Assembly (NCBI GenBank): GCA_021158465.1 | Contig: JAGGUN010000033.1 | Location: 1 to 12,646, forward strand | Length of the DNA stretch: 12,646 nt | DNA from: a bacterium | Lineage (GTDB): Bacteria > UBP14 > UBA6098 > 4484-93 | Direction: 5' to 3' | In this document: in pieces, positions 1,681 through 8,869 of the stretch | How the letters are laid out: every line of letters starts with the position of its first letter | Position numbering within the stretch: position 1 is the first letter of the stretch | Position numbers and translations under genes: made by a program | The notes under the pieces: model-generated | What the model saw: only the letters and a program-made list of their open reading frames with translations | Database searches by the model: none | What the model was told of the DNA's origin: nothing

Positions 1681-4083
1681 TTAGTCGAGCTTTACCTGGG
1701 CTTCGCTCTTCGATATCTCGCTCCAGCCACCGGTAACGAACACCCCCTCGGTGGTGCAGGGGAAGAACTCCATAAAGAGTGGTGGCAGGTCGAATATGTT
1801 CTGGAAACGAACATCATACCCCCAGTTTCGGTGAGGTGGATTGTATGTTTTGTTTCCAGTGTGCCGCCAGTTGGCGTTGTTGAAAGTCGATTCCCAGAGT
1901 TCGATGAATGAGCCCCTTATCTTAAGTCTTCTGCCCCTCCAGTTCTCAATGAATCGAGGGAAGTTCTCTAGACCGCCGGAATATTTTACGCTGCCGTTCT
2001 CCCTGTGTGTCTGGATATGCCCTGTCAGGACAACCGCATTGAGTTCCCAATCCTGTGTGACTGTCTGGACATCGCCACCTGTCTCGTTCGACCAGGAGAG
2101 GTTATCCTTATAAGTCGGTGAGAGGATCTTGAATGCGTCGGAGATAAATGCAACAGGTCGCCAAAGGTCACTATACTTATCGTAGGATGCGGAATCCATC
2201 GGGTCAAGCTCGTTGCCCGATGCATCCTGGTGCAGGTTGAAGTTAGCAACAGCGTATACAACATTGTTGGAGACAAATGTCATACCGATGCTCGGCTCAC
2301 TATACTCTGTTGGGTCCCTCGGAGCGCGGAGTATCGTCTTCTCGTTGAAATTTGTCAGGTCGACTACCTTGACCGAGTCGAGGTTCAGGGTTGTGCTGTC
2401 TGCCTTGTATATGTTACTCCGGAGAACCTCACCGTTCTTCACGCGATACCCATACGGTTTAACATTGTTGGGCACGGCATCCTCACGGGAAGCGTATATT
2501 ACGCCGTTTTCAGGGAAGTGACTCGGGTAATACTTTGCCTTTGGATTCTTCGGGTTGACTGGATTACCGTTTGTGCTGTCGAAATATCCACCCATAAGCT
2601 TCAGCAGGTCCACTGTTGTTAGCATAACATGTCTCCCTGCCCTGTTGTCGTAGAGCGAGTCGAACGAAAATGTCCCAGGAGGGAACTCATCGAGGTTGAC
2701 ATACACGGAATCGCTATCGTTCTTAGCCCAGACATGAAGGGAGTCTTTTACCTCGGAAATATAGGTGGAGTCATATTCCCACCAGCCGGGGGTGATTGTT
2801 GTATCGAGGCAGACCTCCACATACTGCCCGGCACAGCAGGTAAGGGTTGAGTCTCCCACATAAGCCGAGCTGCATTCCCAGCGATGCCCGCAGCAGGGAT
2901 AGTTACGGTTGCCATATGTCGAGCAGGAGTAGTAATACCAATGACCACGCCGCCACCTTCGGTATTTATACCATTTATAACAGACATACTTCTTCCTCTT
3001 TGTGCAGACATACTCCTGGTGACAGTTTGAGAAGGTTGTGTCTGGGGGATGCCAGGTAGTATCTACCTGAAGGGTGTATGTTGTATCCTTCCTTGTTATC
3101 AGTTTCAGCCCGGCTTTCCGCTCATAGTATCCACCCCTGTCAATTGAGCCGTAGGCAGGTGCTGCCTGATATCTTATACCGTGTGAATAGTCTCTGACAT
3201 AGCCGTGCCAGGTATCAAGAGCCCTATTCCGCCAGGCAGGGTCGACCTTCCAGGTATCCTTCGGATTGCCATGCTCCGGGTCGTTTATACCATCCCCGAG
3301 AAGTGGATTGTCGAGGTCCATAGGGTGGTAACCCTCAAGCGGTATTATAGCATCGTTGTCAGTTGTCATCTCGGGTCCTGCCGGCATCGTTGTCCAGTCA
3401 CCGTTGCCATCGTTCACATAGACACGCCCGCTTGCCTTATTCTCGTTTTTCCTCGTTCTCGTTATGTGCAGAGCGGCGGTCAGCTTATCGTAGAAGTTGA
3501 GCGTGCCGCCGGAGCCCATAAAGCAGTTCATATTCGTATGGACAGGCCCAAAGAACTCCATGGAAGGTCCCGGAAGTATCTCGAGGTCATGCTCAAAGAA
3601 TATTCCCCAGTTGAACAAGTATGTTCTTGTTATGGCAATCTCCTGGCGTAGGATACACTGTGCTATCTGCCCCTCTTTCAAGCCGCTGTCCACTACATAT
3701 GTTTTTGTGGATGAGTTCTCATACCTCTGCCAACCGGATGCTTCTCTTATCCTGTATCTGACAACAAGCGGTGGGTCTCCCGGAAGGGTGAACTCATAAT
3801 AATCGTAGGTTGAGTTATATGTTTCACCTGTCGAGGTAGGAAAAGGGAGAGGGATATGTGGCTCGAGGATAATAAGTGTCGGGTCGCTATACACTTTCCT
3901 TATCTTTGCCATCGCTGCTTCGAGCCCAGCCTCCGCCGCGTAAAAAGCCTTCTGGTCGTTGGTATAGTAATGGGCAGTTTTCGCGCCTGTCATAGAAAGC
4001 TTCATCGAGGCGTAGATAATAACGGAGACAACCACAATAATTATCAAGACGACAAATAGGGCAATCCCCTTCCTATTTGACAT
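1681..4083 (-). CDS. Large PilX-like minor pilin / tip protein with cysteine-rich insertion
   Basis: An 800 aa protein whose N-terminus is a type IV pilin signal: MSNRKG, then IALFVVLIIIVVV (cleavage after Gly6) and the PilX hallmark FYAAEAGLE at residues 48-55. Mature position 5 is Val, not Glu, as in GspK/PilX-type tip subunits. Most PilX proteins are far shorter. Residues 354-425 hold ten of the thirteen cysteines in the protein, mixed with Tyr, Trp and Arg (YVCYKWYKYRR at 366-376, NYPCCGH at 394-400). The C-terminal part has the run GGLENFPRFIENW (703-715) followed by RGSFIELWES (723-732), which I recall from large PilX-like proteins with DUF4900-type regions. ATG at 4083 is preceded by GGAGGAG six bases upstream, 14 nt after the PilW-like stop. 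It is last in the minus-strand pilin operon. Its large extracellular part makes a role as pilus tip or adhesin plausible (inference). Confidence 0.8.
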   Translation of the reverse strand: MSNRKGIALFVVLIIIVVVSVIIYASMKLSMTGAKTAHYYTNDQKAFYAAEAGLEAAMAKIRKVYSDPTLIILEPHIPLPFPTSTGETYNSTYDYYEFTLPGDPPLVVRYRIREASGWQRYENSSTKTYVVDSGLKEGQIAQCILRQEIAITRTYLFNWGIFFEHDLEILPGPSMEFFGPVHTNMNCFMGSGGTLNFYDKLTAALHITRTRKNENKASGRVYVNDGNGDWTTMPAGPEMTTDNDAIIPLEGYHPMDLDNPLLGDGINDPEHGNPKDTWKVDPAWRNRALDTWHGYVRDYSHGIRYQAAPAYGSIDRGGYYERKAGLKLITRKDTTYTLQVDTTWHPPDTTFSNCHQEYVCTKRKKYVCYKWYKYRRWRRGHWYYYSCSTYGNRNYPCCGHRWECSSAYVGDSTLTCCAGQYVEVCLDTTITPGWWEYDSTYISEVKDSLHVWAKNDSDSVYVNLDEFPPGTFSFDSLYDNRAGRHVMLTTVDLLKLMGGYFDSTNGNPVNPKNPKAKYYPSHFPENGVIYASREDAVPNNVKPYGYRVKNGEVLRSNIYKADSTTLNLDSVKVVDLTNFNEKTILRAPRDPTEYSEPSIGMTFVSNNVVYAVANFNLHQDASGNELDPMDSASYDKYSDLWRPVAFISDAFKILSPTYKDNLSWSNETGGDVQTVTQDWELNAVVLTGHIQTHRENGSVKYSGGLENFPRFIENWRGRRLKIRGSFIELWESTFNNANWRHTGNKTYNPPHRNWGYDVRFQNIFDLPPLFMEFFPCTTEGVFVTGGWSEISKSEAQVKLD

Positions 4084-4097
4084 ATCTTACTCCTCCA

Positions 4098-4973
4098 CTA
4101 TTCAATATTCCTCATACTTATCTTTGTCGATGTTGTGAACCTGAGATACCCATCTGGATATTCGCTCTTTCCTGGGAATTTCCTGTCCGAGCGGATTGTT
4201 ATGCTCACAGTATAGAGAGTGGCGTTTGCTACAGGAGGCGTTATCTGAAAGTTCTCTATGTTGTCAGCGAAGAGGTATTCTTCATCGGGCGCTGGCCATT
4301 TGCTGTAGATTACCTTCAGGTATGGTCTCTTCGGGTCGGAGTTGTCAATCTTTATCCTCATATCCTGTATCCTTATGACCCAGGCACCGGGACCGTATCC
4401 TCCCGGTGGGAAGATGTTTTTGCCTCCCGGTGGATTGTAAGGGTAGTCAACCCCTGGGTTGTGCTGGAGCTTTTTTGCCGCAATCTGAACATGTGATACC
4501 TGCAGCATCGAGCAGGTTCTACCGTCCGTTATAAGTATCAGGTCCTTCTGCTGGAAGCAGGACGGGTCGGCAACGCACAGTTCTGCTGAAGAGTTTGGCA
4601 TTCTTTTGGTTATCGTGGTCTTGCAGTCCCCATCTATAAGGCGCACAAATACGCTGTCTGGCGTTGTGCTGCCGTTGTCATAAGGGTATATTACAGGAAG
4701 GTAAGCAAGAGAATCCCCGTTCTTGTCATAAGCCCTTATTATACCACCGCGGATGCCAGCGCCTGCCATCTTCATAACCCGGCTTATCTGCTTCAGCGAT
4801 ATCATTGCGTTCTGCCGCATATCGTTGTAGACCTCATCGAGGCTTGTGCGCTTGTTCACCGTTATCAGAAAATACATAGCCGCACTTAACACTATCATCG
4901 AGAGAGCGGTAGCAACCAGAAGCTCAATGAGTGTCCAACCCTTATTTCGCCTTTTGGGTGATAAGAGAGACAT
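4098..4973 (-). CDS. PilW-like minor pilin
   Basis: A 291 aa protein. The prepilin signal is MSLLSPKRRNKG followed by WTLIELLVATALSMIVLSAA, with cleavage expected after Gly12 and Glu at mature position 5; Trp at mature position 1 is unusual (Phe or Met is common). The helix is followed by ISRVMKMAGAGIRGG, matching the 'R.MAG' stretch of PilW-type proteins, a middle section around LCVADPSCFQQKDLILI, and a strand-rich end (YTVSITIRSDRK). An upstream ATG at 5015 would add 14 residues, but the ATG at 4973 has a good ribosome binding site (AGGGGAG about nine bases upstream) and gives a normal leader, so I chose it. It overlaps the end of the PilV-like gene by 32 bp and is followed 14 nt later by the PilX-like gene: a coupled operon member. 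Confidence 0.85.
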   Translation of the reverse strand: MSLLSPKRRNKGWTLIELLVATALSMIVLSAAMYFLITVNKRTSLDEVYNDMRQNAMISLKQISRVMKMAGAGIRGGIIRAYDKNGDSLAYLPVIYPYDNGSTTPDSVFVRLIDGDCKTTITKRMPNSSAELCVADPSCFQQKDLILITDGRTCSMLQVSHVQIAAKKLQHNPGVDYPYNPPGGKNIFPPGGYGPGAWVIRIQDMRIKIDNSDPKRPYLKVIYSKWPAPDEEYLFADNIENFQITPPVANATLYTVSITIRSDRKFPGKSEYPDGYLRFTTSTKISMRNIE

Positions 4974-5322
4974 GCTTCTTTTCTCCCCTTCTATCAAGCC
5001 ATTCGACCTCAACACGAATTCTAAACATATTCTCCTGTAACCCTGTCCCTGTATCGGTTATGAATGTGGTTACCTGAAAATAGTCGATGCTATCAGGACC
5101 GAATGTACCGAGGGTGACCTCTGTCGGGTCCTTCGCCTTTATCTCCTCGAGCTTCTCCTGTGCTATAGCTGTAGCCCGAGAGATGGCTCTGGCGTTGAAA
5201 TTGAGATATGCAATCGTTACGAGGAGTGGAGCAATACCCATAGCAAGAGCGGTCAGGATGAACATCGCTACCATAACCTCCAGAAGCGACCTACCCCTGC
5301 GGTTCTTAAGCCGAATCCTCAC
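4942..5322 (-). CDS. PilV-like minor pilin
   Basis: A 126 aa prepilin. The leader MRIRLKNRRG precedes RSLLEVMVAMFILTALAMG. Cleavage is expected after Gly10 and Glu is at mature position 5, but mature position 1 is Arg, which is atypical. After the helix comes ATAIAQEKLEEIKA, the 'A..Ae..le.l' stretch seen in PilV/GspI-type pilins, and a short beta-rich end. The start codon is GTG at 5322, forming a 4 bp GTGA overlap with the stop of the GspH-like gene; AAGGAG lies five bases upstream. Its product should insert in the inner membrane and join the minor-pilin priming complex with its three operon neighbours. Confidence 0.85.
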   Translation of the reverse strand: MRIRLKNRRGRSLLEVMVAMFILTALAMGIAPLLVTIAYLNFNARAISRATAIAQEKLEEIKAKDPTEVTLGTFGPDSIDYFQVTTFITDTGTGLQENMFRIRVEVEWLDRRGEKKHVSLITQKAK

Positions 5323-5831
5323 GGTAGCTCCTTTGCCGCGGACTTCGATGTCCAGTCCACCGTTATCCGCCCGGATAGCGGGAATATCCTTACGAGTATA
5401 GCACCATTCTCTGCCAGCGAGTCAGCCTTTTCCCTGCCAAGAACAACATATCCACCGTTGGATGTCCCATAGTAGTTGAAGATTACCGTGTGGTTTTCAA
5501 CATTTACCTTGACCCAGTAAATCTCTGGGCGGAGCGATTGCGGTCCTTTTATAAGCTCCTCAGAGGTAGAGTCAAAGATGCAGTTCTCGTTCTTGTCGAA
5601 GAAAACGCCGTAGGTGTTATTTGTTGTGTCGATGTATACACCGTAGTTGGACTTGTGGGCTATGGCGTTGCTCCTTGCCATCCGGAGGAAGCCGCTCAGG
5701 TTCCTCGCCTGTGCAGAGAGACGGCTCTTGCTTATGAACTCGGTAAAGCGTGGAACGGCAATAGCAGCCAGTATCCCAGAGATAACGATAACCGCCATTA
5801 TCTCCAGCATTGTAAAACCGGCTCTCTTCAT
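5319..5831 (-). CDS. GspH/FimT-like prepilin (minus-strand operon)
   Basis: A 170 aa prepilin and the first gene of the minus-strand operon. The signal is canonical: MKRAG then FTMLEIMAVIVISGILAAIAVP, cleaved after Gly5, with Glu at mature position 5. The helix continues to about residue 55 (ARNLSGFLRMARSNAIA), typical of GspH/FimT pilins. Residues 79-91 (DKNENCIFDSTSE) form a calcium-loop-like turn, and TSNGG near residue 123 followed by VVLGRE and SGRITVDW resembles the beta-sheet end of the family. The plus-strand operon opens with a clear relative that shares SNGG, LG and GR(I/V). A long purine-rich tract on the coding strand (about 5843-5866) lies just upstream and holds several Shine-Dalgarno-like GGAGG/AGGAGG motifs; the nearest, AAAGGTGAG, is about ten bases before ATG. 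Its promoter is the minus-strand box pair at 5874-5901. Confidence 0.88.
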   Translation of the reverse strand: MKRAGFTMLEIMAVIVISGILAAIAVPRFTEFISKSRLSAQARNLSGFLRMARSNAIAHKSNYGVYIDTTNNTYGVFFDKNENCIFDSTSEELIKGPQSLRPEIYWVKVNVENHTVIFNYYGTSNGGYVVLGREKADSLAENGAILVRIFPLSGRITVDWTSKSAAKELP

Positions 5832-5984: not shown

Positions 5985-6467
5985 ATGAAAAGGGTCCTGA
6001 AAAACCTTCCTGGTATGACGATGATAGAGATAATGCTCATCGTCGTAATTATAGGGGTTCTTGCAGGGTTATCCCTGCCTATGTTCGGTAGGTATGCAAG
6101 GAACAATAGGGTTAAATCGGATGCGAGGGCGCTCATCTCTGCGGCAAGGCTGGCGAGGAGTATTGCTGTGTCCGATATAAAAACAACAGGAGTGTCTATT
6201 GTTCTGGATTCGATGAAATGTGTCGTCTTCGAGGATAAAAACGGGAACGGTGTCCTTGATACTGCCGATGTCTGGCGTTCACAGAGTAAGCTATCCGACG
6301 ATGTAATATTCTGGAATGTTACATTCCCCAACAATACCCTCATATTCTATCGTGACGGCTCCTCGAACGGTGGGAGGGTGAAGCTTGGAACAGAGGACAG
6401 ACTCGTTGCGTTTGAACTCTCTGTCCTCGCAAGCACCGGAAGGGTAAAGCTTAGGCAGATAAAATGA
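5985..6467 (+). CDS. GspH/FimT-like prepilin (plus-strand operon)
   Basis: A 160 aa prepilin and the first gene of the plus-strand operon. The leader MKRVLKNLPG precedes MTMIEIMLIVVIIGVLAGLSLP; cleavage is expected after Gly10, with Met at mature position 1 and Glu at position 5. Residues 84-95 read DKNGNGVLDTAD, a close fit to an EF-hand or dockerin-like calcium loop (Asp1, Asn3, Asn5, Gly6, Asp9, Asp12). SSNGGRVKLG and STGRVKL mirror the end of the GspH-like protein of the divergent operon, so the two are paralogues. GAGGAG lies 8 bp before the ATG. The stop overlaps the next start as ATGA at 6464-6467, so translation is coupled. Confidence 0.88.
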   Translation: MKRVLKNLPGMTMIEIMLIVVIIGVLAGLSLPMFGRYARNNRVKSDARALISAARLARSIAVSDIKTTGVSIVLDSMKCVVFEDKNGNGVLDTADVWRSQSKLSDDVIFWNVTFPNNTLIFYRDGSSNGGRVKLGTEDRLVAFELSVLASTGRVKLRQIK

Positions 6468-6841
6468 GAAAAAATTTTAACAGTCGTGGACTAACGCTTC
6501 TCGAGGTGGCTGTTGCGATTATGCTATTTGCCTTTGTCATCCTATCTATGGGGACTGCGTTTATGTACGCGGTAAAAACATCCGGCAGTGCCGATATGGC
6601 GACTGAGGCGACACTTATGGGTGAGCGAAAATTGGAAGAGTTAAGGCTTTTGCCGTTCGATAATATCACAGATGGCTCAGAAAAAATCGGAGATTATTCA
6701 ATATCCTGGGATGTAACAACCGTGGGGCTTAGGATAAAGATAGTTCATGTTAGGGTGCACTATGTTGTTAGACCGAATGAGCCTCACAATATCGACATCT
6801 ACTCAGCATTCTGGAGGAAGGCGAGAGATGTTGGAACATAA
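6464..6841 (+). CDS. PilV-like minor pilin (plus-strand operon)
   Basis: A 125 aa prepilin. MRKNFNSRG precedes LTLLEVAVAIMLFAFVILSMG; cleavage is expected after Gly9 with Glu at mature position 5. The segment EATLMGERKLEELRLLPF corresponds to the post-helix stretch of PilV/GspI-type pilins and to ATAIAQEKLEEIKA in the divergent operon. A short beta-rich end follows (IKIVHVRVHYVV). It starts within the ATGA overlap with the GspH-like gene, and its last 14 bp overlap the PilX-like start at 6828. It is the paralogue of the minus-strand PilV-like protein and is of the same length. Confidence 0.85.
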   Translation: MRKNFNSRGLTLLEVAVAIMLFAFVILSMGTAFMYAVKTSGSADMATEATLMGERKLEELRLLPFDNITDGSEKIGDYSISWDVTTVGLRIKIVHVRVHYVVRPNEPHNIDIYSAFWRKARDVGT

Positions 6842-8069
6842 TCAGGACGGTGCAGCACTGTTTTTAGTGATGATAGTTATCATTCTTATAACAGCCATTG
6901 CCACAGCGGCTCTCTTGACATCAAAAACGGACTTTGCTATCGCCCAGAATGAGCGCCGGTCTGTTCAGGCATTCTATATTGCCGAGGCGGGGCTCGTCTA
7001 TGGATGTGAGATACTCGATAATGCCGCGGGAAACGGATTTAACGATGAACTTGCCGGAGCGGATGGAACACCTGGCACATCTGATGATGGGCTCTTGATT
7101 AAAAGAACACCGTTCGGAAATGGATATTTTACCGTTCTGGTGATGGATAACGAGGGTGCGGTGACGGAGGATGGCGATCCGTTTAACGATGCCGATGGGA
7201 TGGTGACGATAGAAAGCATAGGCGAGCGACCGCTCACAAAGCGTATCCTCCGAATGGATGTGAAGAGCGGGCATGACTCCATTCCGGTTGCCCTCTTTAG
7301 TAGGAAGCATTTTGATATGAACGGGAGCATACACATCGATAGCTACGACTCCGATGTCGAACCATACGGACATTTCCCGATGAGATACTCCGGCGATGTC
7401 AGAAGCAACGGGTGGATTGATATGGTCGGAGTGGTCAAGATTTATGGTAGTGCATACTCCGGTGGAATAGTTACTATGACCCCTAATTGTTTTGTTTATG
7501 GTGAGGTGCTCGAGCATCAGGATACAATAAGTTTCGATATCGACTATCATCCTTGCGATTCGCTATGCAATCCTGACCTCATCGGTAGCCCTTACTACGA
7601 TGCCGCCACACAGACATTTAATATCGGGGGGAGTGATGCGATTAGCTTGAACGGGACCGAATACTGCTTCAAGAGTTTTACCATAGGTGGCAGGGCAACG
7701 GTTACCTTCACTCAGCCGAAGGTGAAGATATATATGGAAGGTGATTTCACTATGAATGGCAACAGGTGTCTTATAAAAGTTAAGGATGATAAGCCAGATA
7801 ACCTAAGGATTTACTCCAAACCACCCGATTGGGAGACCGGTGGCAGGGCAAATGTTACCCTCAACGGTAGAAGCGATTTCTACGGTGTTGTCTATTGCCC
7901 CTATGGCGAGTTGACCTTGAATGGAGGCAAGTGTGAGTATTTTGGAGCATTTATGTGCGATGAGGTGACATTAAACGGTAATCCGAGAATCCACTATGAT
8001 GAAGCGCTCCATGGCGTGTTGCATGCGGCAGGTGGTATAACCATATTCGGCTGGAGGGAGAAGCGTTGA
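6828..8069 (+). CDS. PilX-like pilin with beta-helix-like C-terminus
   Basis: A 413 aa protein. An in-frame ATG at 6747 lies deep inside the PilV-like gene; ATG at 6828 is preferred because GGAGG lies ten bases upstream and the protein then begins with a short prepilin leader, MLEHNQDG, before AALFLVMIVIILITAI. Mature position 5 is Leu, not Glu, as in tip-type PilX/GspK. The PilX hallmark FYIAEAGLVYG is at residues 49-59. The C-terminus has regular strands: VTLNG (343-347), LTLNGG (362-367) and VTLNGNPRIHYDEAL (380-394), with FYGVVYCPYGE and YFGAFMCDE between them. This closely resembles the DUF7305-type end of many PilX proteins (family recalled, not searched). It is about half the length of the divergent operon's PilX-like protein and lacks its cysteine-rich insertion. 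It overlaps PilV by 14 bp and PilW by 4 bp. Confidence 0.82.
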   Translation: MLEHNQDGAALFLVMIVIILITAIATAALLTSKTDFAIAQNERRSVQAFYIAEAGLVYGCEILDNAAGNGFNDELAGADGTPGTSDDGLLIKRTPFGNGYFTVLVMDNEGAVTEDGDPFNDADGMVTIESIGERPLTKRILRMDVKSGHDSIPVALFSRKHFDMNGSIHIDSYDSDVEPYGHFPMRYSGDVRSNGWIDMVGVVKIYGSAYSGGIVTMTPNCFVYGEVLEHQDTISFDIDYHPCDSLCNPDLIGSPYYDAATQTFNIGGSDAISLNGTEYCFKSFTIGGRATVTFTQPKVKIYMEGDFTMNGNRCLIKVKDDKPDNLRIYSKPPDWETGGRANVTLNGRSDFYGVVYCPYGELTLNGGKCEYFGAFMCDEVTLNGNPRIHYDEALHGVLHAAGGITIFGWREKR

Positions 8070-8869
8070 GAAAAGGTTTCACCCTCATCGAGCTTCTGAT
8101 TGCAGTAGTCGTTTTTGCATTTCTGTTTATTATTATTATGAGGTTCTACATAGTCGAGCACAAGACCTGGCTGTATATGAATCAGGTCGCCGAGATGCAG
8201 CAGTCGGGCAGGGTATCTATGGAGGAGATAGCAAGAACAATAAGAATGGCTGGCTATATGGTCCCTGCATCGCTGGAACTTATCCGCTCCTATGACACGA
8301 ACCCCGACTCTATCAAAATACGCTCAAACTTCAAGGATATAAGCACAAGGTTAAAATTTGACCTTGCTATCGGCGGGAACCTGGTTGTCGTGGATACAAC
8401 CGGTTTCCAGATAGGAGGGTTTGTCTGCCTTCAGTCGAGCGAGATAGGGGAGTGCGGGAGAATAACCAATATCACACCGTTTGTCCTCGGTGGGTATCTT
8501 ATATCCACATCGTCGGCTATTGCAGGCTCATTCGATAAGAGTAAAACGGTTGTCTGCCCTGTCGATGAGGTAACCTACTTCCTGAAGAAAGATGCGACAG
8601 GCTCATATCTTATGAAGAGGATAAATCGGGAAGCAGCTCAGATTTTCGCCGAGAATATCGAGCGCCTGCAGTTCAGATACCTTTGCGAGGATACAATCGT
8701 CGATACACTCGATTTTGTCGACACACTATTCAACGATAGGACAGTCAGGGTTGTTTATGTGGACATAACCGCCCGCTCCGAGCGTCCCGACCCGGATATA
8801 ACCACAGGTAACGGCTACCGCAGGAGGCAGTATAACACGGGGATAAAGATAAGGAACTACCGGTATTAG
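8066..8869 (+). CDS. PilW-like minor pilin (plus-strand operon)
   Basis: A 267 aa prepilin that ends the plus-strand operon. The start is TTG at 8066, within a 4 bp TTGA overlap with the PilX-like stop; GGAGGGAG lies five bases upstream. The leader is only MRKG before FTLIELLIAVVVFAFLFIIIM, a canonical cleavage site with Glu at mature position 5. MEEIARTIRMAGYMVP matches the PilW 'R.MAG' stretch, LVVVDTTGFQIGGFVCL parallels the middle of the divergent PilW, and VRVVYVDITARSERPD is the typical end strand. No clear terminator follows in 8870-9021; the hairpin at 9022-9045 has only three Ts on this strand. Confidence 0.87.
   Translation: MRKGFTLIELLIAVVVFAFLFIIIMRFYIVEHKTWLYMNQVAEMQQSGRVSMEEIARTIRMAGYMVPASLELIRSYDTNPDSIKIRSNFKDISTRLKFDLAIGGNLVVVDTTGFQIGGFVCLQSSEIGECGRITNITPFVLGGYLISTSSAIAGSFDKSKTVVCPVDEVTYFLKKDATGSYLMKRINREAAQIFAENIERLQFRYLCEDTIVDTLDFVDTLFNDRTVRVVYVDITARSERPDPDITTGNGYRRRQYNTGIKIRNYRY

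Follow-up and report, generated by a model that had tools for sequence, protein, structure and literature searches.

Here we describe an 800 aa pilin with a 72-residue insertion rich in Cys, Tyr/Trp and Arg/Lys, encoded on a bacterial contig (JAGGUN010000033.1) of which the whole stretch of 12,646 nucleotides, the window, was analyzed. The protein is a relative of cyanobacterial HpsA, its predicted fold is like that of the Thermus thermophilus pilin ComZ, and it is very probably a subunit of the type IV pilus tip. In the best explanation, to which we give an even chance of being right, the insertion would form a disulfide-braced loop of basic and aromatic character and enlarge the ligand-binding area of this large tip pilin, with a polyanion such as DNA as the likeliest ligand. 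The features discussed are collected in Table 1.

Table 1 Features of the pilin, its minor-pilin cassette and the zinc-finger pilins of the same phylum.
Feature	Residues	Position (nt)	Strand	Basis or remark
HpsA/ComZ-like large minor (probable tip) pilin carrying the insertion, 800 aa		1681..4083	(-)	ORF, PilX_N, HpsA profile, ComZ by fold
PilX_N transmembrane/assembly helix	5-55	3919..4071	(-)	Pfam; processing Gly at residue 6; +5 is Val
Family signature DLEILPGPSMEFFGPVHTN	166-184	3532..3588	(-)	Conserved in homologues; close to where the predicted beta-solenoid starts
Length-variable loop between two conserved strands, DTT-rich flanks	331-476	2656..3093	(-)	Homologue alignment, AlphaFold2 model
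Cys-, Tyr/Trp- and Arg/Lys-rich insertion	354-425	2809..3024	(-)	Ten Cys
Conserved C-terminal region GGLENFPRF ... YNPPHRNWGYDV	700-775	1759..1986	(-)	Predicted to close the solenoid and return to the pilin sheet (homologue conservation and AlphaFold2 model)
PilW/HpsC-like minor pilin, upstream		4098..5015	(-)	N_methyl 7.7e-6; HpsC NF038304 1.3e-4, below cut-off
PilV-like minor pilin		4942..5322	(-)	N_methyl 2.2e-5
FimT/GspH-like minor pilin		5319..5831	(-)	N_methyl and GspH
Zinc-finger PilX_N proteins (genomes G004, G007, G009, G011)		L039 1465-3183	(+)
		L040, L043, L046 from base 1	(-)

The carrier is a large HpsA-related pilin

The N-terminal helix of the 800 aa protein matches Pfam PilX_N (PF14341) with 40.5 bits against a cut-off of 25.5 (E 2.7e-10). 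The NCBIfam HpsA profile NF038301 matches in several stretches (E 1.4e-34, 119.1 bits), and because this score is below the curated cut-off of 400, the protein is best classed as a relative of HpsA rather than an HpsA equivalog. The sequence-only reading had labeled the protein PilX-like, which is too narrow for a member of an HpsA/ComZ-like family. A search of genome contigs with the single whole-protein sequence gave no match; a search with a two-sequence alignment gave 69 related loci from Cyanobacteria, Thermus, Verrucomicrobia, Acidobacteria, Deltaproteobacteria and others. The same alignment found no relatives in viral contigs. Motifs common to the homologues are DLEILPGP..GPVHTN, GGLENYPRFHE and a C-terminal YxxPxRxWxYD. 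The cyanobacterial HpsA members have the LEI-PGP ... GPVHTN and C-terminal motifs as well and are likewise preceded by prepilin genes, but their loop, in most cases a longer one, contains 1-4 Cys and is unrelated in sequence. HpsA itself belongs to the polysaccharide-linked hps locus, its function being listed as unknown (PMC4284469).

The carrier gene sits in a FimT-PilV-PilW-PilX-like cassette, and one to three prepilin-motif ORFs were found directly upstream in 55 of the 59 homologue loci with enough upstream sequence. The processing Gly is present in 55/57 aligned homologues, none of which (0/55) has Glu at +5; the 800 aa protein has Val at this position. Tip subunits such as GspK typically lack Glu at +5. 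Together with the PilX_N helix, the predicted ComZ-like fold and the minor-pilin cassette, this makes the carrier very probably a tip subunit of a type IV pilus. Display of the insertion at a pilus tip, as proposed from the sequence at first, fits this placement, a location that we infer for the carrier. A second PilX_N protein, with DUF7305, is encoded at 6747-8069 (+) on the same contig and belongs to another, divergently oriented minor-pilin cassette (5985-8869, (+)). With respect to an hps gene neighborhood, no glycosyltransferase Pfam match was found among the larger ORFs of the 12.6 kb contig, which ends there.

Downstream of the pilin gene are a secreted CHSC-motif protein (830-1549, (-)) and a CcdA-like membrane protein (3-824, (-)), separated from it by 131 bp. 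The CHSC-motif protein has a signal peptide, the membrane protein is CcdA-like by eye, and neither has a Pfam or NCBIfam match. The CcdA-like protein matches part of a larger open frame of ~510-570 aa in most other genomes of the phylum. The pair first seemed a promising candidate for a dedicated disulfide machinery, but in two relatives it follows hydrogenase and CCG-domain reductase-like genes, and it was no longer counted as specific support on these grounds.

The predicted fold resembles ComZ

An AlphaFold2 model of the 800 aa protein, built from a 40-sequence alignment, has moderate confidence (mean pLDDT 63). In this model a long N-terminal helix is followed by a pilin sheet and a lengthy series of short strands, after which the chain rejoins the sheet. 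Among solved structures, ComZ matches the model best (PDB 6QVI; Foldseek 1.4e-6). In a VIA comparison ComZ gave Z 14.8 over 352 residues, far above the next entries, with an rmsd of 8.9 Å; given this high rmsd, the predicted match is one of overall architecture. Structures of GspK and FimT did not score above ComZ in the fold search, a result that is not informative either way. By sequence profile the link to ComZ has an E-value of 0.19 and covers the N-terminal part only. The cyanobacterial HpsA family and Thermus ComZ appear to share a fold as well, with a weak sequence link.

ComZ is a large minor pilin in which a beta-solenoid is inserted between the last two strands of the pilin fold; Lys98 and Lys233 contribute to its DNA binding, and it is argued to be located at the tip and has been proposed as a pilus-tip DNA receptor (PMC6561018). 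The moderate-confidence model of the 800 aa protein likewise has a predicted pilin fold with a beta-solenoid before the last strand. The two differ in length (about 550 aa in ComZ) and share only ~10-14% identity. ComZ has no identifiable counterpart of the insertion, and its mapped DNA-binding lysines lie in another part. From the order along the chain, the comparable point in ComZ would be where, after a long loop, the solenoid breaks into antiparallel strand pairs (residues 301-362).

The insertion sits in a length-variable loop

The insertion (residues 354-425, 72 residues) corresponds exactly to positions 3024..2809 of the minus strand. Cysteines of the 800 aa protein are at residues 143, 187, 354, 360, 368, 387, 397, 398, 404, 416, 417, 425 and 776, so that ten of the 13 fall in the insertion and three elsewhere, as had been noticed at the first look, along with the two CC pairs (397-398 and 416-417), the DTT-type text on both flanks and the density of Tyr (12), Trp (4), Arg (7) and Lys (5). 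All of these were confirmed in the translation of 1681-4083(-). Only four residues of the insertion are acidic, its net charge is +8 compared with -18 for the rest of the protein, and its aromatic share is 22%. When 13 Cys were placed randomly over 800 positions, the maximum in a 72-aa window was eight in 20,000 shuffles, against the ten observed. Among 110 sampled genes of the same genome, just one other protein reached ten Cys per 72 aa, with the CxxC spacing typical of an iron-sulfur protein. The spacings in the insertion are 5, 7, 18, 9, 0, 5, 11, 0 and 7, and a scan of residues 354-425 found no CxxC, CxxCxxC or CxxCH motif. A search of the pilin gene for tandem repeats found none. Imperfect 16-nt direct repeats (88%) at 2790-2805 and 3072-3087 flank the insertion, encode DTTIT and DTTYT, and may be due to chance.

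The loop runs from a conserved strand near residue 331 to the conserved segment LYDNRAGR at 477. In 57 homologues it is 29-244 aa long (median 64) with unrelated sequences. The alignment thus places the variable element at the whole loop, residues 331-476, and not only at 354-425. In this protein the loop has 146 residues and ten Cys, compared with 0-4 Cys in the 57 aligned homologues. Homologues lacking the cysteines had been named beforehand as evidence against the first reading, and this came true in part: none of the 57 has more than four Cys in the loop or a similar stretch. This indicates that the insertion is no conserved family domain but a lineage-specific elaboration of the variable loop that this HpsA/ComZ-like tip pilin carries. 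AlphaFold2 gave an unusable prediction (pLDDT ~30) for the insertion segment alone, and in the whole-protein model pLDDT is below 50 for residues 344-459.

The insertion is a genuine coding part of the pilin gene

Because amino-acid-based coding scores fall in the insertion, Cys and Trp being rare residues, the frame was assessed with a score based only on the choice among synonymous codons, with 665 windows from 94 genes of this genome as reference. In calibration, the true frame was the best of three in 90% of windows. The insertion scored 0.041 in frame. This puts it at percentile 30 of the true-frame windows, and at percentiles 95 and 97 when it is ranked against windows shifted by +1 and +2, respectively. 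Its other two frames scored -0.062 and -0.124. Conserved protein lies on both sides of the insertion in the same frame. From the synonymous codon score and these same-frame flanks, we determined that the insertion is a genuine coding part of the pilin gene. A frameshift artefact had been raised by the sequence-only reading as a way to overturn the finding; the codon bias, correct for this frame and wrong for the two others, does not bear it out. More broadly, a frameshift, assembly error or out-of-frame capture could yield a nonsense protein with a composition like that of shadow frames, as the insertion has, and the first-look matches in relatives were indeed shadow frames. Beyond the codon bias, such an artefact is hard to square with the conserved protein that resumes in the same frame on either side, and none of 642 shadow ORFs had the combined Cys and Tyr/Trp density of the insertion. 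We consider it very improbable.

Relatives of the insertion and other modified pilins

No relatives of the insertion were found in its own genome, among the family homologues, or in viral contigs, plasmids and phages. In 17 genomes of the phylum there were also none: the matches examined were either chance stretches or ordinary genes read in a shadow frame, and a search at the DNA level gave only short chance matches. Pfam, NCBIfam and PHROGs gave no match. The best PDB sequence match, to a ribonuclease (E 0.3), was rejected as compositional. The insertion had gone unrecognized when it was first noticed, and no collection searched holds a detectable relative. The whole locus is absent from the only other genome of the genus examined, which is 80% complete.

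Modular type IV pilins such as Streptococcus sanguinis PilB also carry a functional module on a pilin (PMC8179133). In PilB-type proteins the module is appended after the pilin module, whereas here the Cys-rich loop has no known domain and would be nested inside the predicted solenoid. In genomes of a sibling family in the same phylum (f4), ~580 aa PilX_N proteins have a DnaJ-type CxxCxGxG zinc-finger array of 34-39 Cys in the middle of the protein. The Pfam models DnaJ_CXXCXGXG or BSD2_CRD match these proteins weakly, and it is unusual for an exported pilin to contain such an array. They resemble the 800 aa protein as PilX_N proteins with a Cys-rich insertion but differ in having CxxCxGxG repeats and in belonging to a different PilX lineage.

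Proposed function and alternatives

In the proposed mechanism, the protein, a PilX_N pilin module into which a beta-solenoid is built ahead of the last strand, most probably caps the type IV pilus tip, and in this lineage its variable loop would have been enlarged and filled with the 72-residue stretch rich in Cys, aromatic residues and Arg/Lys. After export, the ten Cys most likely pair into disulfides, which would hold a basic, aromatic surface that extends the ligand-binding area of the tip. The even Cys count, the CC pairs, the lack of CxxC and the exported protein argue for disulfides over metal. Since the insertion has neither CxxC nor CxxCH, zinc ribbons, iron-sulfur clusters and c-type heme are less likely, and metal binding in the usual sense, one of the first suggestions, is not supported. 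Such a loop, basic, aromatic and covalently braced, on a tip pilin of the ComZ kind points to polyanion binding, with DNA as the best precedent: ComZ itself binds DNA, and FimT and ComP do so via electropositive patches (PMC8897410). The ligand would then be DNA or another polyanion in the first place, and a polysaccharide or solid surface in the next. Several points weigh against a loop that grips DNA. The insertion has no homologue to show conservation of its Cys, its structure prediction is poor, the mapped DNA lysines of ComZ are elsewhere in that protein, and HpsA relatives serve polysaccharide secretion or motility, not DNA uptake. A ComEC gene is present in the genome, but says little about DNA uptake because it is near-universal among the control genomes. 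Against a disulfide-braced tip, VKOR was sought and not found. The bolder proposal is that a new disulfide-rich domain arose de novo in one lineage and serves as the head with which the pilus tip grips DNA or a surface; we regard it as unlikely.

The loop could also be weakly constrained, a translated in-frame expansion that only decorates the surface and whose composition is an accident of its origin, for example in captured or newly arisen DNA, perhaps through recombination between the short flanking repeats. The 29 to 244 aa span and unrelated sequences of the family loop, the failure to find a relative in any collection searched, and the 16-nt repeats that bracket the insertion all speak for this possibility, which we hold to be rather unlikely. 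On the other side, ten unpaired Cys would do harm to a secreted protein unless they were selected for, their number is even, the charge and the share of aromatic residues are extreme, the codons used are adapted to the host, and a two-copy 16-nt repeat can be chance. Glycan binding by modular tip pilins is reportedly described in a further study. A Tyr/Trp-rich, disulfide-knotted adhesin patch that binds polysaccharides or surfaces, in HpsA-type polysaccharide-linked gliding or adhesion, would suit the closest family by sequence, HpsA of the hormogonium polysaccharide locus, the 12 Tyr and 4 Trp of the 72-residue stretch, and the modular tip pilins elsewhere that bind glycans (PMC8179133). Pfam and NCBIfam gave no lectin or carbohydrate-binding profile match, and so positive a charge is more characteristic of binding to polyanions; this patch is rather unlikely, although polysaccharide is the chief alternative to DNA as ligand. 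Least expected among the functional roles is a metal or redox module, in which the Cys would coordinate zinc or iron, or pass electrons to or from the CHSC-motif and CcdA-like proteins encoded downstream on the same strand. Sibling genomes do have the DnaJ-type CxxCxGxG array in another PilX-like protein. Such a role is nevertheless improbable: the insertion lacks CxxC, CxxCxxC and CxxCH, the downstream pair lies with hydrogenase genes rather than pilins in two relatives, so that its location here is unspecific, the 131 bp gap sets it apart from the pilin gene, and the search for VKOR was negative.

Implications for tip pilins

Modular pilins with grafted modules are already well known (PMC8179133), and the insertion is a further variant. 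The disulfide-braced loop that we favor would extend the modular pilin repertoire by a cysteine-knotted binding head. If the bolder proposal of a de novo domain is true, then with the zinc-finger pilins of the sibling family, it would mean that a small phylum repeatedly arms its pilins with cysteine-rich heads. The comparison of predicted folds sets cyanobacterial HpsA beside the DNA-binding tip pilin ComZ, with the variable loop as the place where tip specificity might evolve.
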